Of a stretch of 64,000 bases of DNA, positions 49,943 through 64,000 are shown one piece after another; position 1 is the first letter of the stretch, and each line of letters starts with the position of its first letter. The notes under the pieces are model-generated. The model had not been told where the DNA came from. It was given only the letters and a program-made list of their open reading frames with translations, and made no database searches. Origin of the DNA: Sedimentibacter hydroxybenzoicus DSM 7310 (GTDB taxonomy: Bacteria > Bacillota > Clostridia > Tissierellales > Sedimentibacteraceae). The translations under genes and the position numbers were made by a program. The stretch covers positions 62,001 to 126,000 of the forward strand of contig NZ_JACBNQ010000004.1 in the NCBI RefSeq assembly GCF_013403245.1, written 5' to 3'.

Positions 49943-50559
49943 GGTTGGAAGCAATTGATATTTCATTCCGTTATGACAACGGAAACAGAAAGATAATAAA
50001 CAATTTAAGCATGCATATGGATAAGGATGAGCGTCTTGGAATTACCGCTCCCAGCGGCTTTGGAAAAACAACCCTTTGCAAGATTCTGGCAGGATACGAA
50101 AAACCGGATTCAGGTGCAGTTCTTTTAGATGGGAAACAGCTTTTCGCATATAAAGGCTATTGCCCTGTTCAGATGGTATGGCAGCATCCGGAATTATCCG
50201 TAAATCCAAGGTTTCGTCTAAAAGAGGTTTTAAAAGAAGGAGACAGGGTAGAAAAGCATGTAATAGAAGGTCTGGGGATTGAACCTGACTGGCTGGAACG
50301 CTATCCTTCAGAGGTTTCGGGCGGAGAGCTTCAGAGATTCTGTATTGCCAGAGCACTTGGACAGGGAACACGATTCCTGCTTGCAGATGAAATAAGCACC
50401 ATGCTTGATTTGATTACACAGAGCCAGATATGGAATTTTCTTATGGAGGAAATAACTCTCAGGGGTATAGGATTAATGGTGGTAAGCCATTCGGAAGGAT
50501 TGTTGAAACGTGTGTGTACAAGAAGAATTAATTTGGATCAGTTAGGAGTGAAGCAATGA
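49939..50559 (+). CDS. nikE: Nickel-type ABC ATPase (NikE family, short)
   Basis: 206 aa: Walker A APSGFGKTTL, Q-loop VWQHPELSVNPR, signature VSGGELQRFCIARA, Walker B FLLADEISTMLD, H-loop SHS. It lacks the C-terminal oligopeptide extension, as NikE-type proteins often do. ATGA overlaps on both sides, with nikD before and larB after, tie the transporter to the cofactor genes. Confidence 0.9.
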   Translation: MRLEAIDISFRYDNGNRKIINNLSMHMDKDERLGITAPSGFGKTTLCKILAGYEKPDSGAVLLDGKQLFAYKGYCPVQMVWQHPELSVNPRFRLKEVLKEGDRVEKHVIEGLGIEPDWLERYPSEVSGGELQRFCIARALGQGTRFLLADEISTMLDLITQSQIWNFLMEEITLRGIGLMVVSHSEGLLKRVCTRRINLDQLGVKQ

Positions 50560-51299
50560 ATATAATAGATATGTTAAATAAGGTAAAATCCGGAGAAATG
50601 GAGATTATTGAAGCGGAAAAGCTATTAAAGGATCTTCCCTATGAGGATCTGGGATATGCCAAGCTGGACCATCACCGGGTACTTCGCTCAGGCTTTGGAG
50701 AAACAGTGTTCTGTCAGGGAAAGCCGGATCCGTACTTAGTGGAAATATATAAGAGATTTTATGACAGAGACGGAGAGGTTTTGGGAACCAGAGCCTCAAA
50801 GGAGCAGTTTGAGCTTGTAAGGAGCATTGTGCCAGAGGTGCAGTATGATCCCATATCAGGAATTTTGAAGGTTGAGCGTCCGGGAAAAGAGAAAAAGGGC
50901 TGTATAGCGGTTTGCACCGGCGGAACGGCGGATATACCCGTTGCGGAGGAGGCGGCTCAGACAGCAGAATACTTCGGATGCTATGTGGACCGTATTTACG
51001 ATGTGGGAGTAGCGGGTATTCATCGCCTTCTGTCTCAGAGAGAACGTATAGCAAAGGCTAACTGCATCATTGCAGTTGCAGGAATGGAAGGAGCCCTGGG
51101 AACGGTAATTGCAGGACTGGCAGAAAGCCCGGTTATTGCGGTTCCTACCTCTGTAGGTTACGGAGCCAGCTTTCACGGATTGTCGGCTCTTCTTACCATG
51201 CTGAATTCCTGTGCCAATGGAATATCAGTAGTAAATATTGACAATGGCTACGGAGCAGGTTATTTGGCAACACAAATAAACAGACTGGCGGTGAAATAA
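50556..51299 (+). CDS. larB: Nickel-pincer cofactor biosynthesis protein LarB
   Basis: 247 aa, PurE/AIR-carboxylase-like domain (about 105-240; CTGGTADIPVAEEAAQTAEY; GMEGALGTVIAGLAESPVIAVPTSVGYG). LarB carboxylates nicotinic acid adenine dinucleotide and removes AMP, the first step to the nickel-pincer nucleotide. ATGA overlap with the transporter ATPase gene. Confidence 0.95.
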   Translation: MNIIDMLNKVKSGEMEIIEAEKLLKDLPYEDLGYAKLDHHRVLRSGFGETVFCQGKPDPYLVEIYKRFYDRDGEVLGTRASKEQFELVRSIVPEVQYDPISGILKVERPGKEKKGCIAVCTGGTADIPVAEEAAQTAEYFGCYVDRIYDVGVAGIHRLLSQRERIAKANCIIAVAGMEGALGTVIAGLAESPVIAVPTSVGYGASFHGLSALLTMLNSCANGISVVNIDNGYGAGYLATQINRLAVK

Positions 51300-51300
51300 T

Positions 51301-52593
51301 ATGGGGAAAATATTGTATTTTGAATGCAATTCAGGAATCAGCGGAGATATGACTGTAGGGGCTCTGCTGGACTCAGGGGCTGACAAAGAGGTTTTAGTAA
51401 AGGCTCTTGATAGCTTGGGAATTAGCGGATACCATCTTCATTTCGGGAGGACTGTGAAATGCGGGCTGGATGCCTATGATTTCAATGTGGGTTTGGAAGA
51501 GGAGCATGCTCATGATCACGGTCATCATAACCACAGCCATCATGAGCATGGGCACGATTGCAAGCATGAACATGAACATCACCACGAACATCAGCAACAA
51601 CACCCACACAGAAATATCCATGACATCTACGCTATTATTGAAAAGCTGCAAACAAGCGAAAGAGTAAAAGACATGGCTAAAAAAATGTTTGATATTGTGG
51701 CGGAAGCGGAATCAAGGGCACATGGTATCCCTGTTGATGAGGTTCACTTTCATGAGGTCGGAGCAATTGATTCCATCGTAGATATCGTAGGAACTGCAAT
51801 ATGTATTGACAATTTAGGGATTGAGGAAGTGGTGGTTTCACCTTTGGCGGAGGGCTTTGGAACTGTTCGGTGCCAGCATGGAGTTATACCGGTTCCCGTA
51901 CCTGCAACTGCGAACATTGCATCGGCACATGGACTGAAGCTGCGTTTTACAGATAATATGGGGGAAATGGTAACTCCTACCGGAGCAGCAATAGCAGCAG
52001 CGCTTAAGACCAAAGAAAACTTACCGGCTACCTTCCGCATATTAAGAACGGGTCTTGGTGCCGGCAAAAAAGATTTTAAACAAGCCAATGTCCTCAGAGC
52101 TATGATAATTGAGGATTCTACTCGCGAAGAAAATACGGGTGAGCAAGCAGAACAGATGTGGGTTTTAGAAGCCAATATTGATGACTCCAACGGTGAAGCC
52201 CTTGGATTTGTAATGGAACTTCTTCTGGAAGCAGGAGCAGCGGATGTATGGTATACTCCGATTTATATGAAAAAGAACAGACCGGCCTATATGATGTCCT
52301 TAATATGCAGGGAGGAAGACATATACAGCTTGGAATCTATTATGTTTACTCAGACTACAACCATAGGTTTGAGAAGGTATCCGGTGTCCAGAACCATTTT
52401 AAGCAGGGAGAAAAGAATCATCAATACAGAGCTTGGTGAGGCAGAAGTGAAAATTTGCAGGCGCGGACAAAGAACTTTCTTTTATCCTGAATACGAAAGC
52501 ATCAGAAAAATATGCAGAAAGAATGATTTGGACTATCAGACAGTGTACTATACAATCAGAGAAGAGGCAGAAAGAATATGGAAAAAGAATTAG
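51301..52593 (+). CDS. larC: Nickel insertase LarC (uninterrupted frame)
   Basis: 430 aa: family start YFECNSGISGDMTVGALLD, motif VHFHEVGAIDSIVDIVGTA, and C-terminal nickel-insertion part (VLEANIDDSNGEALGFVME). LarC inserts Ni into the dithiolated pyridinium mononucleotide using CTP. A His-rich stretch (about 70-103; HDHGHHNHSHHEHGH and more) probably stores or binds nickel. In Lactiplantibacillus larC is split and read through a frameshift; here the two parts are one frame. Confidence 0.95.
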   Translation: MGKILYFECNSGISGDMTVGALLDSGADKEVLVKALDSLGISGYHLHFGRTVKCGLDAYDFNVGLEEEHAHDHGHHNHSHHEHGHDCKHEHEHHHEHQQQHPHRNIHDIYAIIEKLQTSERVKDMAKKMFDIVAEAESRAHGIPVDEVHFHEVGAIDSIVDIVGTAICIDNLGIEEVVVSPLAEGFGTVRCQHGVIPVPVPATANIASAHGLKLRFTDNMGEMVTPTGAAIAAALKTKENLPATFRILRTGLGAGKKDFKQANVLRAMIIEDSTREENTGEQAEQMWVLEANIDDSNGEALGFVMELLLEAGAADVWYTPIYMKKNRPAYMMSLICREEDIYSLESIMFTQTTTIGLRRYPVSRTILSREKRIINTELGEAEVKICRRGQRTFFYPEYESIRKICRKNDLDYQTVYYTIREEAERIWKKN

Positions 52594-53408
52594 AAAATAT
52601 AAAAATAAAATTGGAAGAAGCAATGGCTGAATATGCTAAAGAGGATATTTGTCTGGCATTTTCAGGAGGAGTGGACTCTAGTCTTTTGTTAAAGGTTGCT
52701 GCTGACGCCGTGAAAAAAACAGGAAAAAAGGTATATGCAGTTACATTTGACAGCCGCCTGCACCCATCCTGTGATTTGGAGATTGCTGCCGGAGTGGCAA
52801 AGGAACTGGGTGGAATTCACAAGGTTGTTACTGTGGATGAACTGGAACAGGAGGAAATACGTTTCAATCCTGTAAATCGCTGCTATCTGTGCAAGAACAA
52901 GCTTTTTAAGACGCTTAAGGAATTTGCAAAAGGGGTTGGGATTTCAAGTGTTATGGATGGAACCAACGAGGATGACATGCACGTATACCGCCCGGGAATC
53001 AAAGCTTTAAGAGAACTTGGAATTGTAAGTCTTTTGGCCCAGCTTCACATTACCAAGGCTCAGGTGAAAAAACTTGCTGCAGAGTATGGAATTTCTGTTG
53101 CTTCAAGACCTTCAGCTCCTTGTATGGCAACCCGCCTGCCCTACAATACTGAAATTAATTATGATATTCTTGAACGCATCGGGCAGGGAGAAGAGTTTCT
53201 GCGAACCATGATAAATGGCAATGTTCGTTTAAGGCTCCACAATGATATTGCTCGTATTGAAGTGGATTCAGAAGCAATGGAAGGGCTGATTAATAACAGG
53301 GAAAGAATTGTTTCTGATTTAAAGGAAATGGGATTTTCTTATATTACCGTGGATTTGGAAGGCTTTAGGTCCGGCAGCATGGATATTGGAATAGATCCGG
53401 TCCTGTAA
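52578..53408 (+). CDS. larE: Sulfur insertase LarE, three-cysteine type
   Basis: 276 aa: PP-loop SGGVDSS (29-35) for ATP pyrophosphatase chemistry and the family segment SRPSAPCMATRLPY with Cys182. Cys102 and Cys105 (RCYLCK) join it in the three-Cys pattern described for [4Fe-4S]-type LarE (Thermotoga), rather than the single sacrificial-Cys type of Lactiplantibacillus. Overlaps larC by 16 bp and ends the operon. No larA follows. Confidence 0.95.
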   Translation: MEKELENIKIKLEEAMAEYAKEDICLAFSGGVDSSLLLKVAADAVKKTGKKVYAVTFDSRLHPSCDLEIAAGVAKELGGIHKVVTVDELEQEEIRFNPVNRCYLCKNKLFKTLKEFAKGVGISSVMDGTNEDDMHVYRPGIKALRELGIVSLLAQLHITKAQVKKLAAEYGISVASRPSAPCMATRLPYNTEINYDILERIGQGEEFLRTMINGNVRLRLHNDIARIEVDSEAMEGLINNRERIVSDLKEMGFSYITVDLEGFRSGSMDIGIDPVL

Positions 53409-53582: not shown

Positions 53583-55214
53583 ATGCTTATAAACGGATTA
53601 ATAACTGAGGTTGAAATTATAGATTTAAATCACACAGGACAGGGAGTCGCTAAAATAGATAACTTTGTTGTATTTGTAAGCGGAGCAATTACAGGAGATG
53701 TAGTTGAGATAGAAATAACAGAGACAAGGAAAAACTATGCTGTAGGACAGATAATAAATATTGTTAAACCCTCTGAATTCAGGATAAAGTCACCTTGTGA
53801 ACATTACGAGCAATGTGGCGGCTGTCAGTTAATGCATATGGATTATAACGAGCAGTTAAAGTATAAAAAGAACAGAGTAATTAATGAACTTAAAAGATCA
53901 AATGTATCATTTGAAGAATCAATAGTATATGACACTATAGGTATGGAAGATACATATAGGTACAGAAATAAAATAGCATTTTCTGTTATAGAAAAAAATG
54001 ATGAAATACAAATCGGACCATACGAGCAGGGTACATACAATACTGTTGATATTAATGGCTGTATGCTTCAAAGCAAGGAAGCGGATGATGTCGTAAAAGC
54101 TTTCAAAAATCTGATGGTGAAATACAAAATCAAAGCCTACGATAAGAATTTAAACCGGGGAATTGCAAGAAATATTGTAATCAGAAATAACCGTAAACAT
54201 GATTTGATGCTGATAATTGTTACTGTGACGGATAATTTTCATAACAAGGGCGAATTAATCAACGAATTAGTATCACTTGTACCAAATATAAAGACCATAG
54301 TACAAAACGTTAACAATAAAAATACAAATTTAATCATGGGAAGAAAAAATATTACCCTATATGGTGAAGGTACAATCATAGATATGATTGATGATTTAGT
54401 TTTTACCATATCACCTGAAACTTTTTTTCAAGTAAACCCTGTCCAGACAGAAAAGCTATATCAGACAGCCATCCAATATGCAGACATAGGAAAACACGAT
54501 ATTTGCTTTGATATATATTGCGGCATAGGTACAATTTCCTTAATGGCAGCAAAAAAAGCAAAAAAGGTATACGGAGTGGAAATAGTAGAGCAGTCAATTA
54601 TAAATGCAAGAGAAAATGCTAAAAGAAATAATATAAATAACACTGAATTTTTCGCCGGCAAAGCAGAAATAATTGTCCCAAAACTCTACAAACAAAATAT
54701 AAAAGCAGACATAGTTATAGTCGACCCCCCCAGAAAGGGCTGCGAAAAAGAAGTAATAGACACCATCATCAGCATGTCACCCAAAAAAGTAGTATACGTA
54801 TCCTGCAACCCTTCAACCTTAGCAAGGGATATAAAGCTGTTAGAAAGCAGCGGATATAAATTGCAAAAAGTTCAGCCTGTCGACCAATTCCCGTGGACGG
54901 TGCACGTTGAGACGGTTGTTTGTTTGTCCAGAAAAAATCCTGATGACAGAATAGAAATCGACTTAAACCTTGATGAGCTTGATATTACTGCTTCTGAAAG
55001 TAAAGCTACTTATGAGGAAATCAAAGACTATGTTCAAAAGAATCACGGCTTTAAGGTATCAAGTTTGTATATTTCGCAGGTTAAAAGAAAGTTGGGATTA
55101 GAGGTTGGAACAAACTATAACCTTCCAAAATCAGAGGATGCAAGAGTGCCACAATGTCCACCAGAAAAGGAGAAAGCCATAACAGAAACATTAAAGCATT
55201 TTAGGATGATATAG
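53583..55214 (+). CDS. rlmD: 23S rRNA (uracil-C5) methyltransferase with C-terminal extension
   Basis: 543 aa: TRAM domain (1-60), Fe-S cysteines CEHYEQCGGCQ (72, 78, 81) plus Cys160, SAM loop FDIYCGIGT (309-317), IVDPPRKGC (379-387) and catalytic SCNPSTLARD (Cys408). Methylates U1939-type sites of 23S rRNA. Residues about 455-543 are an extra module (YEEIKDYVQKNHGF; YISQVKRKLGL; VPQCPPEKEKAITETLKHF) typical of clostridial members and absent from E. coli RlmD. Single gene with its own promoter; last gene before the accessory segment. Confidence 0.93.
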   Translation: MLINGLITEVEIIDLNHTGQGVAKIDNFVVFVSGAITGDVVEIEITETRKNYAVGQIINIVKPSEFRIKSPCEHYEQCGGCQLMHMDYNEQLKYKKNRVINELKRSNVSFEESIVYDTIGMEDTYRYRNKIAFSVIEKNDEIQIGPYEQGTYNTVDINGCMLQSKEADDVVKAFKNLMVKYKIKAYDKNLNRGIARNIVIRNNRKHDLMLIIVTVTDNFHNKGELINELVSLVPNIKTIVQNVNNKNTNLIMGRKNITLYGEGTIIDMIDDLVFTISPETFFQVNPVQTEKLYQTAIQYADIGKHDICFDIYCGIGTISLMAAKKAKKVYGVEIVEQSIINARENAKRNNINNTEFFAGKAEIIVPKLYKQNIKADIVIVDPPRKGCEKEVIDTIISMSPKKVVYVSCNPSTLARDIKLLESSGYKLQKVQPVDQFPWTVHVETVVCLSRKNPDDRIEIDLNLDELDITASESKATYEEIKDYVQKNHGFKVSSLYISQVKRKLGLEVGTNYNLPKSEDARVPQCPPEKEKAITETLKHFRMI

Positions 55215-55575
55215 AAAAATGTTAGTAGGCAGTAAAAAATATATGAGGGTACAGTGCGTTAGTTCGTAGACTAAAATAGTATATCAGGAACATAAATAAA
55301 AACTTTTTACTGATGAAGAAAAAATGGACATAAATTTATGCATATATGAGTATATAATTAACCCATACTATAAATGTAAATAATTGGTAAACATCATATA
55401 TGACGTTCAAACATAATACGTATAGATGACAATAGATAAAGCTGATAGGTGAAGTTGGGTATATGGGATATATCAAAAGGGGTATCTACTCTAAGAGGTG
55501 CAAATAAAATTTAGGATTGATATCCAATCCGCTACGCGTTACACTGTGACCAATTTAAGATTGGTGGGTGATAAC
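55215..55575. other. Intergenic stretch at the edge of the accessory segment
   Basis: About 360 bp, very AT-rich, without a convincing gene. It contains ATGGACATAAA near 55323 (a motif resembling TTGGACA at 58108, 61972 and 63218). The frame of the following gene is open from 55498. I recognise no riboswitch, tRNA or attachment site here. Confidence 0.4.
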
Positions 55576-55842
55576 GTGAATGAGTTAGAGGAATTATATA
55601 ATAATGCTGCTTCCTATGCAGAAGATTTTGGGTTCAACATTTCTCCTGAGTGGAAAGACCTATCAGAGAAGATAGCAGACCTGACAAAAGACTTATCCTC
55701 TATTTTGGATGATAAGCAAAGAGAAAAGTTAAAACTGCTTGCAGACCTTTACACAAGACAGACTTGTCTTGAAACTGATAGAATGTTCTTTTATGCTTTT
55801 ACAAGTGGTGCAAGGCTGATAATGGATATTCAAAATAAATAG
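55576..55842 (+). CDS. Small DUF6809-like protein
   Basis: 88 aa, helical, starting VNELEELYNNAASYAEDFGF and continuing ISPEWKDLSEKIADLTKDLS and LLADLYTRQTCLETDRMFFYAF. The pattern resembles DUF6809, small proteins found next to clostridial mobile genes; function unknown. I chose GTG 55576 with GGTGGGTGAT upstream; the frame extends to 55498 without a ribosome site. Confidence 0.55.
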   Translation: MNELEELYNNAASYAEDFGFNISPEWKDLSEKIADLTKDLSSILDDKQREKLKLLADLYTRQTCLETDRMFFYAFTSGARLIMDIQNK

Positions 55843-55860
55843 TAGGAAAATCGTGTAAAA

Positions 55861-55891
55861 TAGCACTCCCGTTTTGTTTACGGGAGTGCTA
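55861..55891. terminator. Bidirectional terminator
   Basis: TAGCACTCCCGT (55861-55872) / ACGGGAGTGCTA (55880-55891), perfect 12-bp stem, between the small gene and the convergent XRE gene. Confidence 0.85.
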
Positions 55892-55919
55892 TAATTATTT
55901 GATATGCTTTATAGATGAT

Positions 55920-56168
55920 TTAATCAAATTCAAGGATTTTAGAAGGTGGCACTTCCAAAGCCTGTGCTATTGCAAGCAGTGTGCTTAGGGAAAAACTCAT
56001 AGCCATATTGGGAGCCTCAATTTGAGATAGAAAGCCCACAGAGATATCTGCCTTGTCTGCTAACTGATTTTGGGTCATAGCCCTTTGCCTTCTAAGGTAG
56101 CCTATTTTTAAACCAATTTCTATAATCTCATCTCTGAATTTATCTGAATTTTTGTTCTTAGTACCCAT
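55920..56168 (-). CDS. XRE family transcriptional regulator
   Basis: 82 aa, single helix-turn-helix: IGLKIGYLRRQRAMTQNQLA, DKADISVGFLSQIE and STLLAIAQALEVPPSKILEF. Start ATG 56168 with AGAGGTGAG; upstream in-frame ATG lacks this. Divergent from the LRR surface-protein gene, whose promoter lies just beyond its start, so regulation of that gene is plausible. Confidence 0.9.
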   Translation of the reverse strand: MGTKNKNSDKFRDEIIEIGLKIGYLRRQRAMTQNQLADKADISVGFLSQIEAPNMAMSFSLSTLLAIAQALEVPPSKILEFD

Positions 56169-56195
56169 TTTCTCACCTCTATTTATTGTAGCAGG

Positions 56196-56224
56196 TTGAA
56201 AATGGAAGATTAACATGGTATAAT
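56196..56224 (+). promoter_or_regulatory. Promoter of the LRR surface protein
   Basis: TTGAAA (56196-56201), 17 bp, extended -10 TGGTATAAT (TATAAT 56219-56224). Confidence 0.7.
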
Positions 56225-56306
56225 ACAGGGGTTACTGTCTTCTATGCAGTATAAAAAATATATAACATAGCAATCACTAAATAAATATTAAAAGGAGAAA
56301 TAAAAC

Positions 56307-58028
56307 ATGAAAAAACTACTTTCAACAATTCTTGCAATTGCAATGGTCTTTTCCCTGTCCACCACAGCATTTGCAGCAACCAGTGTATCAGATTTTACAG
56401 ATAGTGATTATCTTACTATGAAACCTCTTGATTATCATAAAATGCGTACCTTTTCAACCAATGGTAAAGGTGTTGCTTGGGACAGTGGTGCAACAGTAAT
56501 TTATGGTGAATCAGGTTTATTTGGAACAATCCCAGGAGCAAAGGGTGATGGCATTTGGCAGAAAAGTCCAAGTGTAGATACAAGTGTTAAGTCAATCAGT
56601 TTCCCAACAAGTGTAGTTATTTTGGGTATTCAGACTTTGGATGGTAGAGATGCAGTAACCTCTATCAATTTTAATGAACTTACCAATCTAAAATATATTG
56701 GTATCAGTGCATTTAACAGAACAAAGATTACCACAGCAGACCTTTCAAAGACAAAAGTAATCAACATTGACGATGGTGCATTTATGGCAGGAACTCAGGC
56801 AACCCTGACAACTTTCACAGCACCTTCCACTCTAAAGCGTTTGGGTACTGACGTATTTGCAAACCAGACAAGAGTAACCCTGAATTTGAATGAGGGTCTT
56901 GAAATCATTGATGATGGTGCATTGAAGGACGCTCCAGGAACAACAATTCCTTCCACAGTAAATGAAATTGGCAAGAACGCCCTTAACCCTAATACAACTT
57001 ATAAGGTTACAAAGGGTAGCTATGCAGAGCAGTATTGTAAGGACAACAGCATTAAGTATGTCTACACAGACAATACTTCTCCAACAACTCCAACAGACCC
57101 AACCACTCCTGCAACCAATTTCCCAACAATGGAGTACACTAAACAGATTGGTCCAGTAACCTTTTCCAACTATGTATCTCATACGCAGAGCAATCCTTCA
57201 GATGCCAATGGCAATAAGATTGACGTAACATGGGTAAAGATTAGTGACAAGGGTTCAATGCGTGCAGACAAGGACAAGACAGAGTTCAAGTATCATTATT
57301 CAGAGCCTTGGAATACAACAAATGAGTTGGATGTAGGTAGAACAGATAATACTTTTGGTTCAGGTCATTGGTCACTATCACAAAGGGGTGTAACGCCATA
57401 CGCAACCACAAAATCCAATGGTACTTGGAGCAAGGGCTTGACTTGGCAGTTCAATTATAATGCTCAATATACCAATCAGAATAGCTTTAAAATCACAGTA
57501 GAGAACAACAACCAGAAGTATTATTACTATGTAACAGTAGTAACAGATAAGCCTTCAGGCTCAACCACAACCCCAACAAATCCAACAACCCCAGCAACAA
57601 AAGCCACAGCCAACCCAACCAATTCAAAGGTAATGGTGAATGGCAAGCAAGTTTCTTTTGATGCGTACAACATTAACAACAATAACTACTTTAAGCTGAG
57701 GGATGTAGCACAGATTATCAGGGGTACAGATAAGCAGTTTAATGTGACTTGGGATGGAACAAAGAATGCAATCAACCTTATTTCTAATGAGGCGTATGAA
57801 AGCACAGGTGGGGAACTTGCCCTTGGAGATGGTCAGAGCAAACAATCTACCCTTAGTACCTCAACTATCTATAAGGATGGCGTAGAAGTATCTTTGACAG
57901 CTTATAATATCAATGGCAACAACTATTTCAAGTTGAGAGACTTAGGACAAGTATTTAATTTTGAGGTATCTTGGGATGGTGCTAATAACACAGTTGTTAT
58001 AAACACAGCAAATGACTATACAGAATAA
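56307..58028 (+). CDS. Secreted BspA-type LRR protein with stalk domain
   Basis: 573 aa: signal peptide (1-24, ending TTAFAA), BspA/LRR_5-type repeats (about 75-250, ending VTKGSYAEQYCKDNSIKYVY), Thr/Pro linker, a unique beta-rich domain (about 275-415), a second Thr/Pro linker and a copper-amine-oxidase-N-like stalk domain (about 430-573; KVMVNGKQVSFDAYNINNNN and NYFKLRDLGQVFNFEVSWDG). No cell-wall sorting motif or transmembrane anchor, so it is secreted or held non-covalently. AAAGGAG before the ATG. Confidence 0.85.
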   Translation: MKKLLSTILAIAMVFSLSTTAFAATSVSDFTDSDYLTMKPLDYHKMRTFSTNGKGVAWDSGATVIYGESGLFGTIPGAKGDGIWQKSPSVDTSVKSISFPTSVVILGIQTLDGRDAVTSINFNELTNLKYIGISAFNRTKITTADLSKTKVINIDDGAFMAGTQATLTTFTAPSTLKRLGTDVFANQTRVTLNLNEGLEIIDDGALKDAPGTTIPSTVNEIGKNALNPNTTYKVTKGSYAEQYCKDNSIKYVYTDNTSPTTPTDPTTPATNFPTMEYTKQIGPVTFSNYVSHTQSNPSDANGNKIDVTWVKISDKGSMRADKDKTEFKYHYSEPWNTTNELDVGRTDNTFGSGHWSLSQRGVTPYATTKSNGTWSKGLTWQFNYNAQYTNQNSFKITVENNNQKYYYYVTVVTDKPSGSTTTPTNPTTPATKATANPTNSKVMVNGKQVSFDAYNINNNNYFKLRDVAQIIRGTDKQFNVTWDGTKNAINLISNEAYESTGGELALGDGQSKQSTLSTSTIYKDGVEVSLTAYNINGNNYFKLRDLGQVFNFEVSWDGANNTVVINTANDYTE

Positions 58029-58037
58029 AAACCATTC

Positions 58038-58063
58038 GGGGAAGGTTGAAAACAGCCTTCCCC
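58038..58063 (+). terminator. Terminator after the LRR protein
   Basis: GGGGAAGG (58038-58045) / CCTTCCCC (58056-58063) around a short loop, followed by TTTCC. Confidence 0.75.
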
Positions 58064-58158
58064 TTTCCAACTAAAAAGAACAAATATTGAGCATATATAA
58101 TTCCCTCTTGGACAGAAAAATCTACTTTTGATTAATAACAATCAAAGGGGGATTTTTT

Positions 58159-58794
58159 ATGTTAGTAAGTGAAGTTACTGCTTTTTTGGAGCAGGCCTAT
58201 AATGTTCTCAATCAACACTACTTCGGCGGCATACTGCCGCCGGTGATAATTACAGTCCAGAGTTCACCTAAAACAAATGGACACTATACGAAATTTGATG
58301 CTTGGGAGCAGAGCAATCAAGGATATAGGGAAATAAATATAAGTGCTGAAAATCTGAATAGACCTATTCAATGTGTCATAGCAACCTTAATACATGAAAT
58401 GGTTCACCATTTCTGTGACCAGCAAGGAATTAAGGATTGTAGCAGAGGTGGGGTCTATCATAATAAGAAATTCAAAGAGCAAGCACAGCAAAGGGATTTG
58501 ATTATTGAGTATAACCCAAGAATAGGATTTAGCGTGACAAGCCCCTCGTATGCCCTTGTAGCCTTTATTGAGGGACAGGGGTGGCAAGGGATAGACTTAT
58601 CTCGTGTAGGTGGACACAGCGTGCCTGGTGGGGGTTCTGATAATGCTGGTAATTCTGGTGGGGATAATGGAAAGCCTAAATCATCCACCAGAAAATATCA
58701 ATGCAGGGTATGCCAAAATAGCGTTAGAGCAACAAAAGAGGTTCATATAGCCTGTCTGGACTGCAATACACAAATGTTTCAAGTGGAAAAATGA
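58159..58794 (+). CDS. SprT-like zinc metallopeptidase domain protein
   Basis: 211 aa: SprT-like domain with HEMVHHFCDQ (HEXXH at 79-83) and upstream QHYFGGILPPVIITVQSS; a Gly-rich linker; C-terminal zinc ribbon (YQCRVC ... ACLDCN). SprT/Spartan relatives cleave proteins crosslinked to DNA; small bacterial versions are common on mobile elements and uncharacterised. AGGGGG ribosome site next to a TTTGATT/AATCAAA hairpin. Confidence 0.85.
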   Translation: MLVSEVTAFLEQAYNVLNQHYFGGILPPVIITVQSSPKTNGHYTKFDAWEQSNQGYREINISAENLNRPIQCVIATLIHEMVHHFCDQQGIKDCSRGGVYHNKKFKEQAQQRDLIIEYNPRIGFSVTSPSYALVAFIEGQGWQGIDLSRVGGHSVPGGGSDNAGNSGGDNGKPKSSTRKYQCRVCQNSVRATKEVHIACLDCNTQMFQVEK

Positions 58795-59115
58795 AGAAAA
58801 ATTCAATCTAAGAAATCTGCTATCATAATTTTGTGGTAACAGATTTTTTAATGTGCAAAAATCTTAAAAAATCTATCAGGGGCATTTACGAAGAACACAT
58901 ACAGGGTATAGCCTGCTCCCCTACTCCCTATCTCAAAAAATACTCACTTATTGTTCTTATTGAGATTGCAGCCTTTGAAGGTATTTCCTGAAAAAATAAG
59001 TTTTGGATGGTGATTTTGGAAAAGTTGGTTTTGTGAAGTGCAGGCTAAAAAGATTGTAATTTCATGGGTTATCCTGTATACTGGTAGAAAAGAACAGTAA
59101 GTGAGTGGGTAGACT
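58795..59115. other. Intergenic region before the methyltransferase fusion
   Basis: About 320 bp with no gene recognised. It includes short T-runs after the SprT gene and the promoter at 59054-59082. Confidence 0.5.
59054..59082 (+). promoter_or_regulatory. Promoter of the methyltransferase fusion
   Basis: TTGTAA (59054-59059), 17 bp, TATACT (59077-59082); ATG at 59116. Confidence 0.6.
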
Positions 59116-61524
59116 ATGAGTGAGAAGAAGAAATCACAATATAAAGGGGTACACCAGAGAAAGAATGGAACTTGGTACTACCGCATTAAAAAGACCTTTG
59201 AAGATGGTACAATTGAACATTTTCAGGAAAGCGGGTTTAAAAATGAAGAGCTGGCTAATCAGGCTCGTATAGAAAGGTTAAGAAGTGTTGAATCGCTCAG
59301 GGGCTTTTCTGTAATATTATCTAAAGAAGATATAGTTGAGATAACCTTTGGAGTAGCATTTCAGGAGTTTTTAAATGATGGGTTTATAGAGAGTGAAAAC
59401 TCTATAAAAAAGTATCAGGCCTTGTATAACGCTCAACTTATGATGTGGGAGCATAGAGAAATCCATACCCTTACAGACCAGGATATAGATATTCTCCTAT
59501 TGAGGTTATCGCTGCAAGGCTATTCAGAGAGTTATATTTCTTCCATTAGAAAACTCCTGAAAATCTTTTTTGGTTATTTGAATTTGACATATCCTATGAT
59601 TGATGCATCCCTTGGAACTGGTATTGTAACGAAGCCTTATAAATTAAGGGTGTTGAGCTTGTTTACTGGGATTGGAGCATTTGAACAGGCTCTGACCAAT
59701 TTAAAGATAGACTATCAACTTGTAAATTTTTGTGAAATAAATGAGAAAGCAATAAAGGCCTACTGCCTTTTACATAATGCAATACCCGACAAGAACTTAG
59801 GAAATATAAATACTGCATGGTATAAACACTACATACCTAATGCAGATATTATGTTTTTTGGTTTTCCCTGCACAAGCATAAGCAGAGCAGGAAAACGTGA
59901 GGGGTTAAGGGATGGGGATGGGGAGCTTACAGAAAGTGGACTTTTTTTCAGTGCTATGCGTGTAGCCTATCTGAAAAAACCTAAAATCCTCATTGCTGAA
60001 AATGTAGCAGATTTACTTGGGAAAAAGCATAAAGAAGATTTTAAGCGTATCATAGAAGAATTTGAAGACCGTGGGTACAACTATTTTTATAGAAAGTTGA
60101 ATGCCAGAGATTTTGGCCTTCCCCAAAACAGAGAAAGGGTTTTCTTTATTTTGGTGCGTGAGGACTTAGAACTAAGGTTCAAATTCCCCAAAGGCTTCCC
60201 TTCTGCAACCAGAGCTGAAGATTATTTTCTTTATCAAGAGGAAAACAAGGGCTATACAGTAGACGATAAGTGCTATGTGGATATGTCCAAAGACACTAAA
60301 TTGTCAGAACTATTAAGGACAGGCTATGACTTTGAAAAACAGAAGGAATATATTAAGTGTATCACCACCGGTTGGGGATATCGTAGTTATGATAGGCAAT
60401 CCTTTATAAAAGATGATGAGGGTATCAGGTGTTTAGATGGTCAGGAGTTAATGAGGTTTCAAGGGTTTACCTATGAACAAGGTAAATTATTGCGTGAAAA
60501 TGGGTTCACAAATTCTGAAATTGGGTATCTGGTAGGAAATTCAATCAGCGTTCCTATCTTGGAACGGATTATGAAAAAACTCATAGAGGCACTTGGACAG
60601 AATAATAAAGTAAGTATTCCTGATAAAGAGCAGAGAAAATATAAATGGGTAGAAATCATGCCATTGTTCTCCTATTCGGGGAATAAAACAAAACTGCTAC
60701 AATATCTATTGCCTTTGTTCCCCAAAGATTTACCCAATATGAATTTTATAGATGCCTTTGCTGGTACTGCTACTGTATCAGTAAATATAAAAGCAAAGAG
60801 AATTCTGGTAAATGATTTTGAACTGCTGCTTATAAATATTTATAAAGCCTTATCTACCATACCACCAGAGGAAGCTTGGGAACAAGTTGTAAATGTGGTG
60901 GATTGGTATAATTTATCAAGCGAAGATGAACAGGGATATATCCAATGCAAGGAACATTATAACAGGTCAAGCAGAGAGGCCAGTTCTGTCCTATGGGCTA
61001 TGGGTCTTGCTTTGATATATCATAGTTTTAATAGAGGTACAATAAGGCATAATTTAGAAGGTGAATATAATGCTTCATTTGGAGAAAATAAATGTGATAT
61101 GGGTATCTCTAAAATGAGGTTCTTCCCCTTTGCTAAAAAATTATATGAAAGCAATCACTTTGAATTTTCCAACAAGGATTTTAGAGAACTTCCTTTAGAG
61201 GAATATGGGTATGAGGACACATTTATATATTTAGACCCTCCCTATTATGCAAGTGAGGCCACCTATAACAAAGGGTGGACTGAAAAGGATGAAAGAGAAC
61301 TGTATGCCTTCTTAGAGGATTGCGACAAAAAGGGTATCAGGTGGATGCTATCCAATGTTACAGAAAATAATGCAAAGAGGAATGAAATCTTGATTGAATG
61401 GCTTGAAAAGGTTCAAGACAAATTCCATATATACCACCTGAACAGAGATTACAAGAACAGCAATTATCAGAGAGAAAACAAGGGTAAAACGGATGAGATA
61501 GTTGTTACCAACTATAAAGACTGA
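59116..61524 (+). CDS. Integrase-like head fused to C5-cytosine and D12 adenine DNA methyltransferases
   Basis: 802-aa three-part protein. 1-160: tyrosine-integrase-like DNA-binding head, an arm-binding segment (YKGVHQRKNGTWYYRIKKTF, 9-28) and a SAM-like core-binding helical domain (about 76-158), without the catalytic domain. 175-495: C5-cytosine methyltransferase with motif I LFTGIGAFEQ (182-191), IV GFPCTSIS (Cys252), VI ENV (295-297), VIII QNRERVF (337-343) and X GNSISVP (474-480); the target-recognition region is about 350-470. 510-802: D12-class adenine methyltransferase with FSYSGNKTKLLQYL, FIDAFAGTATVSVN (544-557) and DPPYYAS (707-713). All key catalytic residues appear intact. No restriction gene is adjacent. 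Start has only a weak ribosome site (GTGAGTGGG). Confidence 0.9.
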   Translation: MSEKKKSQYKGVHQRKNGTWYYRIKKTFEDGTIEHFQESGFKNEELANQARIERLRSVESLRGFSVILSKEDIVEITFGVAFQEFLNDGFIESENSIKKYQALYNAQLMMWEHREIHTLTDQDIDILLLRLSLQGYSESYISSIRKLLKIFFGYLNLTYPMIDASLGTGIVTKPYKLRVLSLFTGIGAFEQALTNLKIDYQLVNFCEINEKAIKAYCLLHNAIPDKNLGNINTAWYKHYIPNADIMFFGFPCTSISRAGKREGLRDGDGELTESGLFFSAMRVAYLKKPKILIAENVADLLGKKHKEDFKRIIEEFEDRGYNYFYRKLNARDFGLPQNRERVFFILVREDLELRFKFPKGFPSATRAEDYFLYQEENKGYTVDDKCYVDMSKDTKLSELLRTGYDFEKQKEYIKCITTGWGYRSYDRQSFIKDDEGIRCLDGQELMRFQGFTYEQGKLLRENGFTNSEIGYLVGNSISVPILERIMKKLIEALGQNNKVSIPDKEQRKYKWVEIMPLFSYSGNKTKLLQYLLPLFPKDLPNMNFIDAFAGTATVSVNIKAKRILVNDFELLLINIYKALSTIPPEEAWEQVVNVVDWYNLSSEDEQGYIQCKEHYNRSSREASSVLWAMGLALIYHSFNRGTIRHNLEGEYNASFGENKCDMGISKMRFFPFAKKLYESNHFEFSNKDFRELPLEEYGYEDTFIYLDPPYYASEATYNKGWTEKDERELYAFLEDCDKKGIRWMLSNVTENNAKRNEILIEWLEKVQDKFHIYHLNRDYKNSNYQRENKGKTDEIVVTNYKD

Positions 61525-61576
61525 TACTGAAAAAACGCTCTATTTTTGTTCCAAAATAATAATTTCATAGTTATAT

Positions 61577-61616
61577 AGCCAACTCCCTATGCCGATATCG
61601 GCATAGGGAGTTGGCT
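61577..61616. terminator. 40-bp perfect palindrome, terminator of the fusion gene
   Basis: AGCCAACTCCCTATGCCGAT (61577-61596) followed by its exact reverse complement (61597-61616), then TTTTC. No loop bases at all; the RNA would fold with a 4-nt loop. Position 53 bp after the stop suits termination. Confidence 0.8.
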
Positions 61617-62043
61617 TTTCTGGATGTGTATATTCAAAAAATCTATCACTGCTGCAATCTGAAATCAAACTGGAGGGGTATCTCCTATTCTGTCTGATTT
61701 ATAAAAACAGTCTTTCTTTTTATAACCACTGTTCTTCTCTTTTATAATTCATGTGTGAAAAGCAGGTATTCCAATCATATAACCTACTATTCATTTGCAA
61801 TAAGATGTAAATATTACAGTTATATTACAGATTGAATATGGTATTAGACAAATACAAGAATGTGCGATAAAGTAGTCCTACACCACAACAAACGAAAAAT
61901 GACATATATTATAAAGTAAAATTAAACATTTGTCAATGAGAAAGTTTTACAGATAAAAGTCAAAAGGCGAATTGGACATAAAAGAAATTTTAGCACTGTT
62001 TAACGTAATATTGAATAGATAACAGAACAAATAAGTTTACATT
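61617..62043. other. Long AT-rich non-coding region
   Basis: About 430 bp with no credible gene. A TTGGACATA motif lies at 61972-61980. The 3' end leads into a structured leader (62044-62109). It could hold the promoter of the small-gene run, but no clear -35/-10 pair stands out. Confidence 0.4.
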
Positions 62044-62109
62044 ATATAGGCAGCACAGGATGGTATGTAAATATGGGTTCAACTCCCATTGCTGCAAGGG
62101 GTTCTATAT
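62044..62109 (+). ncRNA. tRNA-like leader structure 1
   Basis: GCAGCA (62050-62055) pairs with TGCTGC (62090-62095); directly 5' of the latter is a perfect T-arm, ATGGG-TTCAACT-CCCAT (62073-62089), stacked on the acceptor-like stem with no linker as in a tRNA. Only 17 nt (62056-62072, GG-containing) stand where D and anticodon arms should be. ATATAG (62044-62049) and CTATAT (62104-62109) extend the outer stem. Lies 35 bp before the gene at 62144. Confidence 0.5.
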
Positions 62110-62143
62110 GGGCTACTAATAAAAATACATTGGAGGAAATTAA

Positions 62144-62617
62144 ATGGAGAATATTGTTATTAATGGAGTAGAGGTTTCAGAGGTTAGAGGGATTAGTATT
62201 GAAGACCTTTACAAGGTGTATCAAGAGGCTGTAGAAGAAGATATTCCTTATTATGTAGAAGCGAACTGTCTGGTTCAGTTTGATACTGAATATAAGCCAC
62301 TTGAAGCCTATCTTTGTATCTCTCGTGAGGGGGATGAATGTTGGTCTTATGTAGATTTTCCATTCACATGGAAAAATGGATGGACTGAAAAAATGTACTA
62401 TGCCATAAAGATAAACCTCTTAGAAAGTGAAGTTACGGTACAATCTGAATTTTTGGAGGGTTATCCTTATGATAGGTTAGGTGAGCCACTTGTAGGCATC
62501 ACAGATGAAGAAGTTGAAGAGTGGGAAGAGGGAGTTGCAAAATACAGAGAAGAATACGCTCAAAGTATAGAATTTAGGTTTTTTGAGGAAATTGTAGAAG
62601 AACTGATAGAGGGTTAA
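62144..62617 (+). CDS. Very acidic protein of unknown function
   Basis: 157 aa, cytosolic, no membrane segment. By my count about 39 Asp/Glu against about 11 Lys/Arg. The N-terminus (MENIVINGVEVSEVRGISIE) resembles other small mobile-element proteins but no family is recognised. GGAGG before the ATG, with a tRNA-like structure in the leader. The strong negative charge would suit a DNA mimic, which is speculation. Confidence 0.75.
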   Translation: MENIVINGVEVSEVRGISIEDLYKVYQEAVEEDIPYYVEANCLVQFDTEYKPLEAYLCISREGDECWSYVDFPFTWKNGWTEKMYYAIKINLLESEVTVQSEFLEGYPYDRLGEPLVGITDEEVEEWEEGVAKYREEYAQSIEFRFFEEIVEELIEG

Positions 62618-62626
62618 CCCTCTTTT

Positions 62627-62690
62627 AGCAGGGGCATGGGTGCTAAGTGGAAAATTCATTTATAGGGGTTCAATTCCCCTATCCTGTATA
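62627..62690 (+). ncRNA. tRNA-like leader structure 2
   Basis: A T-arm ATAGGGG-TTCAATT-CCCCTAT (62662-62682) followed directly by CCTGT, which pairs with GCAGG (62628-62632, one G-U). Between lie 29 nt including a GGGTGC segment like a D-loop; there is no anticodon arm. Just downstream ACCCTACGGGGT (62690-62701) forms a small hairpin before the gene at 62735. Layout matches structure 1. Confidence 0.45.
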
Positions 62691-62734
62691 CCCTACGGGG
62701 TTTCCATAAACAGAGAAAGGAGGAAGTCTTTTAT

Positions 62735-63016
62735 ATGATTAAAGAAAATAGTTTATTTTTTGCAACAGATTTTCCACAAGAGCAGATTTTTATTTTGGCT
62801 GTGATTGGTGAATCAGTACCAAATTTAAGTTATGATGAGGTACAATTAACCTTTTATACAGGTTATCAAGGTACGGGTAAAATGATTTGGTTTGATACGT
62901 TTATCGTAGAAGATTATATATTAGAGGACAGAGAAGATTTACAAGAGATAGTTGAGAACTATTTTGAAAAAGATGAAACTTTGAGTATGGCAAAAAGAGC
63001 ATTAGAGGAAAGATAA
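62735..63016 (+). CDS. Small acidic protein of unknown function
   Basis: 93 aa: MIKENSLFFATDFPQEQIFI, a beta-rich middle (VQLTFYTGYQGTGKMIWFDT) and an acidic C-terminal helix. No family recognised. AAAGGAGG before the ATG and a tRNA-like structure in its leader; terminated by the hairpin at 63082. Confidence 0.7.
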   Translation: MIKENSLFFATDFPQEQIFILAVIGESVPNLSYDEVQLTFYTGYQGTGKMIWFDTFIVEDYILEDREDLQEIVENYFEKDETLSMAKRALEER

Positions 63017-63081
63017 TAGTTTTGAAAAATAGATAACAATAAAATCTCATTTGGATTTTGCTATAGGCATATCAAAAATTG

Positions 63082-63113
63082 CTGTGTCAGAACTGACACA
63101 GTATATTTTTTTC
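63082..63113 (+). terminator. Intrinsic terminator
   Basis: Perfect 9-bp stem CTGTGTCAG (63082-63090) / CTGACACAG (63093-63101), then TATATTTTTTT. Confidence 0.85.
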
Positions 63114-63323
63114 TCTTTTTTCATCTTAATTATTTATATGAAAATAAAAACTTATTTATCGTTCTTTAATCCGTAAAAATATGAAAAAATTATCCCTTGC
63201 TTAAAGAAAATATAGGATTGGACATATATAAAATTAGTTTTGGCTGATACGAACAATTTGAGTGACATAAAGATAAATTCCCTGCAGTTAGATTTATTCT
63301 AACTTAGAGGGGGTGAAAAAGTT
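63114..63323. other. AT-rich leader region
   Basis: No gene seen. Contains TTGGACATA (63218-63226) and a hairpin AGTTAGA-TTTAT-TCTAACT (63286-63304) directly before the GAGGGGG ribosome site of the next gene. Confidence 0.45.
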
Positions 63324-63617
63324 ATGAAGTCAAGTATCAGCATATTTTTTGAAGTGCCTGAAATGGTATACAAAATTTTGGACATGGTAGCAGAGCAAGA
63401 CAATAATGTGAAATTGTATTGTATGGGTGGAAATGAAATCTTACTGGCAGGCAATCTACCAGAGGTTGAGGATTGTGAGGATGAAGATGAGGATTGGGAA
63501 GATATAGAAGATGAAGATGAGGGTGATTTAGAGTTATTTAAGAAAAATGTAAAGTGGGAAGATTTAGATTTAGATTTTGAGGATGATAGTTGGTGGAATA
63601 AAGATTTACCATTTTAA
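63324..63617 (+). CDS. Small protein with Asp/Glu-rich tail
   Basis: 97 aa. The first 50 residues look folded (KSSISIFFEVPEMVYKILDM); the rest is almost continuous acid (DEDEDWEDIEDEDEGDLELF and more), ending WWNKDLPF. No family recognised. Ribosome site GAGGGGGTG. Followed 15 bp later by the next gene, so probably one operon. Confidence 0.75.
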   Translation: MKSSISIFFEVPEMVYKILDMVAEQDNNVKLYCMGGNEILLAGNLPEVEDCEDEDEDWEDIEDEDEGDLELFKKNVKWEDLDLDFEDDSWWNKDLPF

Positions 63618-63631
63618 AGGGGGTGTAGCAA

Positions 63632-63952
63632 ATGTCAGTTAATTTGGTTCCTGCTGTGATTGCAGTTAAGGCAGGTAAAGACAAGGCGGGTCAAAATGCT
63701 ATTGTGCATCAAGTGGCACAGATAACAACAAAGTGCTGCTATTACAATGTTGAGATTGTAGAAGGGTTTGTCAGTTTTGGAGGGTTAAAGGATATTAAAA
63801 AAGAAGCCATAAAGATTTTTGAGAAAAAGGCATACAGGTATTTAATGATTTATTCTCCTACACAGTTTACTCAAAATGAAAAAGAGTACAGGGAGTTTGT
63901 AGAGGAATTAGAGCAGTTTTATAACATTCACGTTAAGCAGTTAAGACCTTAA
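63632..63952 (+). CDS. Small protein of unknown function
   Basis: 106 aa, mixed alpha/beta and near-neutral or basic, unlike its acidic neighbours: MSVNLVPAVIAVKAGKDKAG, then YYNVEIVEGFVSFGGL and a C-terminal EFVEELEQFYNIHVKQLRP. No membrane segment. AAAGGGGGTG before the ATG. Last complete gene in the window; family not recognised. Confidence 0.7.
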   Translation: MSVNLVPAVIAVKAGKDKAGQNAIVHQVAQITTKCCYYNVEIVEGFVSFGGLKDIKKEAIKIFEKKAYRYLMIYSPTQFTQNEKEYREFVEELEQFYNIHVKQLRP

Positions 63953-64000
63953 CGCAATTTTCTCAGGTGGGCTGGTTTCAGACCTTCCCAAAATCCTATA

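Follow-up and report, generated by a model that had tools for sequence, protein, structure and literature searches.

A predicted DNA methyltransferase with an integrase-type head and paired C5 and D12 domains, carried by a serine-recombinase element in rumA of Sedimentibacter hydroxybenzoicus

The 64,000-nucleotide stretch of Sedimentibacter hydroxybenzoicus DSM 7310 analyzed here (the window; contig NZ_JACBNQ010000004.1, positions 62,001 to 126,000) encodes a protein of 802 residues, P0001, in which a head related to the DNA-binding part of tyrosine integrases is followed by a C5-cytosine methyltransferase and a D12-type N6-adenine methyltransferase. The gene is cargo of a 13.27-kb element that we take to sit in the host gene rumA (rlmD). 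P0001 is best read as a solitary modification enzyme with two activities that would shield the mobile element from restriction, the head being an accessory DNA-binding or assembly module and the protein having arisen from a head–D12 ancestor by later insertion of the C5 domain; we give this reading a probability of roughly 0.55. Feature coordinates are listed in Table 1, and positions to the right of the window are given as L006 coordinates (L006:4175 is position 68175 counted from the window start).

P0001 runs from an ATG start to a TGA stop as one uninterrupted frame, on a contig of 195 kb (genome size 3.8 Mb), and GC content at third codon positions (GC3) is uniform over the head, C5, and D12 segments (0.356, 0.355, and 0.350, respectively). 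Both methyltransferase domains score far over the Pfam cut-offs (PF00145 DNA_methylase, residues 178-490, E = 1e-54; PF02086 MethyltransfD12, residues 520-775, E = 5.1e-26) and over those of NCBIfam (dcm, 176.3 bits against a cut-off of 100.65; dam, TIGR00571, 120.1 bits against 114.85); with both databases taken together, the D12/Dam part spans residues 515-799. In the C5 domain, motifs I (FTGIG), IV (GFPCTSIS, with PC), VI (ENV), VIII (QNRERVF, a QxRxR), and X (GNSISVP) can be read directly in this order, and the D12 domain has FAGTA at motif I as well as DPPYYAS; such motifs are marks expected in active methyltransferases. By sequence, the closest solved relative of the C5 part is M.HhaI (E about 1e-24), and that of the D12 part is the DNA adenine methylase 1yf3 (E = 5.4e-34), which we take to be T4 Dam. 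The PHROG family of C5–D12 fusions, phrog_116, covers residues 172-716 (E = 1.3e-77). P0001 is thus, as far as its sequence can tell, a head plus two complete methyltransferase domains with the expected catalytic motifs. The original prediction, made by a model from the DNA letters, had described both enzymes as complete, and its coordinates and boundaries are right within a few residues.

The same prediction had described the head as of integrase type but without the recombinase catalytic domain, an assignment that needed testing because the Pfam thresholds were missed: Arm-DNA-bind_4 matches residues 19-53 (E = 0.016) and Phage_int_SAM_1 residues 93-155 (E = 0.046), both below threshold. It is upheld by PHROG, in which positions 112-253 of the 611 in phrog_1 ('integrase') match residues 8-161 (E = 1.7e-10), and by hhalign, in which the heads of P0001 and its relative P0002 (see below) align with 11 integrases over 152 columns (probability 99.4%, E = 1.9e-21). 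The integrases came from a profile of these two heads, which at E ≤ 1e-4 matched 18 of 391 class genomes, including the own genome and that of P0002 (G308); here as in all our genome searches, at most 398 genomes were sampled per rank, starting from a coarse first look. The remaining 17 open reading frames (ORFs) from this profile (L030 to L046) are 335-473 residues long, bar one of 135, and an alignment of 11 of them has the invariant columns R, HxLRH, GH, and Y, a pattern expected of tyrosine integrases. A profile of the N-terminal halves of 12 clostridial integrases gave 55.3 bits for P0001 and 76.6 bits for P0002, against 9.2 bits for the best of 1000 shuffled heads; this test is partly circular, as the integrases were found via a profile containing the P0001 head, which is not so for the phrog_1 match. 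No match to PF00589, the catalytic domain that bears the R-K-H-R-H-Y residues of tyrosine integrases, was found in P0001 (Pfam, E ≤ 1). We conclude that the P0001 head is, by homology, the arm- and core-binding region of an integrase without the catalytic domain. Its two regions have the same order as in the tyrosine integrases of Bacillota (phrog_1 and the clostridial ORFs L030 to L046), whereas in P0001 methyltransferases stand in place of the catalytic domain and the basic charge is largely lost. To our knowledge, integrase arm- and core-binding modules occur together with a recombinase domain.

Of the 63 positions conserved among 37 viral-contig integrases (picked from 47 non-redundant ones), P0001 keeps only 15 and P0002 keeps 19, which speaks against an unchanged function of the head. 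Net charge over the counted columns is +1 for the P0001 head and +10 for the P0002 head, compared with a mean of +12.3 and a minimum of +6 for the 37 integrase heads; the core-binding part of the P0001 head has a charge of -4 against an integrase minimum of -1, and residues 1-174 together have -0.1 at pH 7. In searches of the Protein Data Bank (PDB), the head alone found no match, and the best match of the two-head profile, the Int protein 2kiw, was not significant (E = 0.14). A 39-row profile recovers integrase core-binding domains (2kkp, E = 2.5e-17), which says little about the head itself because 37 of its rows are integrases.

The ends of the element were located by comparison with rumA of genus relatives. 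The window's rumA product has about 90 extra C-terminal residues compared with these relatives, matches to which mostly end at 440-466 (the RlmD profile ends at 443). On the left, similarity to rumA of relative L061 ends after GTGCACGTTGAG (54900-54911), and that to L051 and L053, in which rumA ends with ETV..., continues to about 54937; this end is uncertain by about 26 bp (54911-54937) because the rumA ends of four of the six relatives compared differ. On the right, similarity starts again at 68166-68187, within the end of a gene for a large serine recombinase (L006:2540-4225), in which Pfam finds Resolvase, Recombinase, and Zn_ribbon domains. The last codons of this gene from 68175 (VECVILMQRCGIEGKS, then stop) resemble the rumA ends of L061 (VHVECVILMQRSGIEDKK, then stop) and L063 (VHVECVILMQRSGLEDEK, then stop), two of the six genus relatives compared, the other four having different ends. 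With a serine integrase at one end, we take the element to have inserted in rumA in such a way that rumA and the recombinase gene traded 3' ends, and the mobile-element setting suggested in the original prediction has thereby acquired two located ends. A reciprocal 3'-end exchange of rumA and integrase is reported for streptococcal serine-integrase elements that target rumA (PMC4701971). The P0001 element shares the insertion site and the exchange with the rumA-targeting integrative and conjugative elements (ICEs) of this class, but is just 13 kb long and has no recognized conjugation gene.

No relaxase, conjugation, or phage structural gene was recognized by Pfam among the 13 element ORFs taken as genes, part of which were also scanned with PADLOC or PHROG, small unassigned ORFs remaining; the scanned ORFs thus lack the relaxase or transfer genes of an integrative conjugative or mobilizable element. 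Nor was a restriction enzyme or nuclease family recognized in these 13 ORFs by Pfam, or in nine of them by PADLOC, so that P0001 has no adjacent restriction endonuclease recognized within the element, as a type II restriction-modification system would. The earlier statement that no restriction enzyme gene is nearby therefore holds inside the element, but not beyond it: a gene for a DUF1016/YhcG nuclease of the PDDEXK type (L006:4358-5122, its N-terminal profile matched from position 72) begins about 180 bp past the right end, outside the element, and no link between it and P0001 was found. Element DNA had no match among plasmids (megablast), the recombinase had no relative other than the own copy in 25 genus genomes (E ≤ 1e-80), and Rfam had no match on 54900-64000. 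The right-hand neighbor gene used for synteny occurs in one of the 25 genus genomes, namely the own one.

A head joined to a methyltransferase is also found in P0002, encoded by a distant Clostridia metagenome-assembled genome (RGIG8521, water deer cecum; JAGAKI010000058.1). P0002 starts with about 198 residues of unknown function, which are followed by the head and a D12 domain; it has no C5 domain. The heads of the two proteins are about 28% identical and the D12 domains 50% identical. The P0002 head matches Pfam Arm-DNA-bind_4 below the cut-off (E = 0.0024). Like P0001, P0002 is cargo of a small serine-recombinase island, of 11.1 kb, but this one splits spoIIID rather than rumA (L024:9060 to L025:163), and the serine recombinases of the two islands are 24% identical. 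The flanks match SpoIIID positions 4-37 and 38-79 of an 80-position NCBIfam model; each piece alone is below the NCBIfam cut-off and above that of Pfam. The island resembles the gene-intervening elements of sporulation genes. Because P0002 has the same head–D12 join in another island, this join has probably not come about through an assembly error, and the presence of head–methyltransferase fusions in at least two different serine-recombinase islands speaks for a working unit.

Fusions of C5 and D12 domains in one chain are familiar from the P1 Dmt kind, represented here by an ORF of 672 residues on the IncY plasmid pSBF45b (L004; IncY plasmids being presumably P1-like) and one of 616 residues in the Citrobacter phage Omnitron (L005), both of the phrog_116 type. 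They share with P0001 the order C5 then D12, a single chain, and all motifs; both are likewise borne by mobile elements, with no nuclease in the ten annotated features around L004. They differ in that no integrase head was found in them, they are about 23-25% identical to P0001, and both P0001 domains are closer to other proteins. In FastTree phylogenies, P0001 and P0002 are sisters in the D12 tree (support 0.946), and in the C5 tree P0001 clusters with viral-contig C5 enzymes of the stand-alone kind (support 0.861). P0001 falls into a clade of 50 of the 52 members in the D12 tree and into one of 22 of the 25 in the C5 tree, and neither clade includes the two P1-like fusions. By BLAST, the best C5 matches of P0001 are about 45% identical over 205-227 residues, and its D12 domain is 50% identical to that of P0002 and at most 39% to others in the set. 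Trees and BLAST thus give no sign that P0001 and P1 Dmt share a fusion by descent, and since they put the P0001 domains nearer other proteins, we infer that a head–D12 protein existed first and that its linker later received a phage-type C5 domain, independently of P1 Dmt.

Within the family (27 genomes, E ≤ 1e-40) and the order (249 genomes, E ≤ 1e-60), both sets including the own genome, searches for further copies found no full-length P0001 other than that of the window. The 13 matches in 391 class genomes (E ≤ 1e-35) were the own copy, whole, and 12 matches over one domain, and a D12-pair profile found the own copy and one D12–D12 tandem (G798) in 398 phylum genomes (E ≤ 1e-40). With tblastn, none of the matches listed from plasmids (at least 5000 records) and none from phages (1882 records) spans 80% of P0001. 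No relative emerged from six-peptide scans of viral and genome contigs; the same method missed P0002, which was later found by alignment. Among 80 kept of 389 viral C5 loci, no ORF has a C5 match joined to a head or D12 domain at E ≤ 1e-3; one locus (L158) has a weak head match in a separate ORF (E = 0.0013). Among 80 kept of 137 viral D12 loci, together with L004, L005, L026, and L027, a head is found only in L026, which is P0002, and a C5 domain only in L004 and L005. The P0001 head alone matched the own copy and two weak candidates in 249 order genomes (E = 2.6e-4 and 6.2e-4), nothing in plasmids, and, in phages, residues 6-53 of the head with five Streptococcus integrases (E = 0.9); the P0002 head had no match in phages. 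The search for proteins with all three parts, suggested with the original prediction, thus yielded, in the sets covered, one full-length protein, the own copy, and P0002 as a partial relative. No description of a head–C5–D12 architecture or an integrase–methyltransferase fusion turned up in the open-licence papers searched.

Given two predicted activities and no nuclease found, the likeliest function of P0001 is to protect the element. The C5 and D12 domains would methylate the DNA of element and host, yielding m5C and m6A, respectively, and an element so marked would escape more than one restriction enzyme, or restriction at both strands of one asymmetric site, on entering a new cell. Captured from an integrase, the head would now serve to strengthen DNA binding or to assemble the enzyme, and not to select integration sites. 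Mobile elements often carry solitary methyltransferases, which can have an anti-restriction role (PMC12707154), and 19 orphan methyltransferases are counted on ICEs and integrative mobilizable elements of S. salivarius (PMC7563491). Several points weigh against this interpretation. Anti-restriction does not account for the head, since P1-like C5–D12 fusions exist without it, and in the PHROG scan that linked the P0001 head to phrog_1, the P0002 head was matched by phrog_26960 instead (unknown function, E = 2e-7). The small unassigned element ORFs could conceal a restriction partner, transfer of the element is itself presumed given that no gene for transfer or phage structure was recognized, and the FastTree phylogenies were midpoint rooted, with modest support at some nodes.

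The main alternative, though we consider it unlikely, is that P0001 is a Type IIS-like two-strand enzyme minus its restriction partner, with each of the two domains, C5 and D12, marking a different strand of one asymmetric site. Joined D12–D12 enzymes beside FokI- or AlwI-like nucleases are thought to mark both strands of one site in this manner, several D12 relatives of P0001 are such tandem fusions (L013, L014, L020, and G798), and two of the three plasmid D12 matches opened adjoin genes for FokI-C-terminal or AlwI-family nucleases, whereas the third (IncY) does not. P0001 also resembles the M.FokI-type D12–D12 methyltransferases in having two methyltransferase domains per chain and a related D12 domain, but differs from them in that one of its two activities would be C5, in its head, and in the lack of any nuclease found; no nuclease was recognized in the element, and P0002, nearest to P0001 by D12, has just one such domain and no C5. 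In Type IIT enzymes, which have two catalytic sites and an asymmetric sequence, there is one methyltransferase per strand, sometimes in a single chain (PMC4081073).

The low conservation of the head and its lost basic charge would also be expected if it were a non-functional relic of gene fusion, the methyltransferases alone being of consequence. We regard this as improbable: the head is kept in two proteins that have diverged to the identities given above, and in both it has an open frame with arm- and core-binding parts.

More doubtful still is the proposal that Clostridia serine-recombinase islands recruit the DNA-gripping half of an integrase to aim methylation at element ends, arm sites, or the sites of competing integrases. 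The head would bring the enzyme to arm-type or attachment sites, where the marks would regulate recombination, perhaps with a catalytic-only tyrosine recombinase of 196 residues that lies in the same element (L006:1466-2056, or 65466-66056 from the window start; PF00589, E = 4.2e-17). This recombinase would be the missing catalytic half, and shared sites could tie recombination to methylation. A head without a catalytic domain and a catalytic domain without a head do share one 13-kb element, two different head–methyltransferases exist, and the charge of the P0002 head is in the integrase range. However, integration is by a serine recombinase, not a tyrosine integrase, and the P0001 head has lost most of the conserved positions and basic charge of integrase heads; the earlier proposal of methylation guided by the head to integration sites fares poorly on these grounds. 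In addition, no tyrosine recombinase except P0002 itself was detected at E ≤ 0.01 in 40 kb fetched around P0002. Apart from the own genome, two of 199 from the order have same-size relatives of the catalytic-only recombinase, with 60% (G236) and 47% (G184) identity, and in 10 kb and 20 kb fetched around these relatives no C5 or D12 domain was found, the sole head match being a full-length integrase.

That three genes were joined by an assembly or frameshift artefact, a possibility raised with the original prediction, is extremely improbable in view of the single open frame, the even GC3, and the head–D12 join found independently in P0002, even though only one full-length copy was found and the head–C5 and C5–D12 joins themselves occur once only.

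The presence of a related head on methyltransferases in two islands, with and without C5, suggests that integrase modules are reusable for DNA modification. If the head does steer methylation, P0001 would offer a naturally occurring template for methylation of two bases at chosen targets; if it does not, the protein would still exemplify how mobile elements build anti-restriction enzymes with several activities.

Table 1. Coordinates of P0001, its domains, and surrounding features, counted from the window start.
Feature	Position	Strand	Basis
P0001 gene (integrase-type head, C5, D12)	59116..61524	+	ORF list, Pfam, NCBIfam, PHROG
Head, residues 1-174; homologue of tyrosine-integrase arm-binding and core-binding (SAM-like) regions, no catalytic domain	59116..59637	+	phrog_1, hhalign, profile against shuffles, sub-threshold Pfam
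C5-cytosine methyltransferase domain, residues 178-490	59647..60585	+	PF00145, M.HhaI alignment, motifs
D12 N6-adenine methyltransferase domain, about residues 514-802, DPPYYAS	60655..61521	+	PF02086, 1yf3, P0002
Left part of the 13.27-kb serine-recombinase element carrying P0001	54912..64000, on to 68175 (L006:4175)		Flank similarity to rumA of relatives
Host rumA/rlmD, 543 residues, 3' end exchanged in frame for element sequence	53583..55214	+	TIGR00479, residues 15-443
DUF6809 protein, element gene	55498..55842	+	Pfam, E = 2.4e-10
Cro/CI-type HTH regulator, element gene	55920..56216	-	Pfam HTH_3, E = 1e-8
LRR_5/Cu_amine_oxidN1 protein, hydrophobic N terminus by eye, element gene	56307..58028	+	Pfam
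SprT-like protein, element gene	58159..58794	+	Pfam, E = 1.9e-6; phrog_6361, E = 1.8e-22
Perfect 40-nt palindrome then TTTCT, possible transcription terminator	61577..61616	+	52 bp past the methyltransferase stop

The palindrome downstream of P0001 was not listed by the terminator scan, which requires a loop of 3-8. Beyond it, the element encodes three small, very acidic ORFs (62144-62617, 62735-63016, and 63324-63617) with net charges of -28.5, -13.5, and -25.5 and pI values of about 4.05; none has a family match over the cut-off in Pfam or PADLOC, the downstream acidic ORF has no match among plasmids, and the three are possibly DNA-mimic-like. Further to the right, a resolvase-type protein with HTH_7 (L006:313-849) has no counterpart to positions 1-45 in the Resolvase profile and is therefore probably without the catalytic serine, making it the third recombinase-like protein with a missing part in one element. 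In the host DNA beside the element (50556-53408) are genes that we take, from their protein sequences, to be larB, larC, and larE-like genes of the nickel-pincer cofactor.

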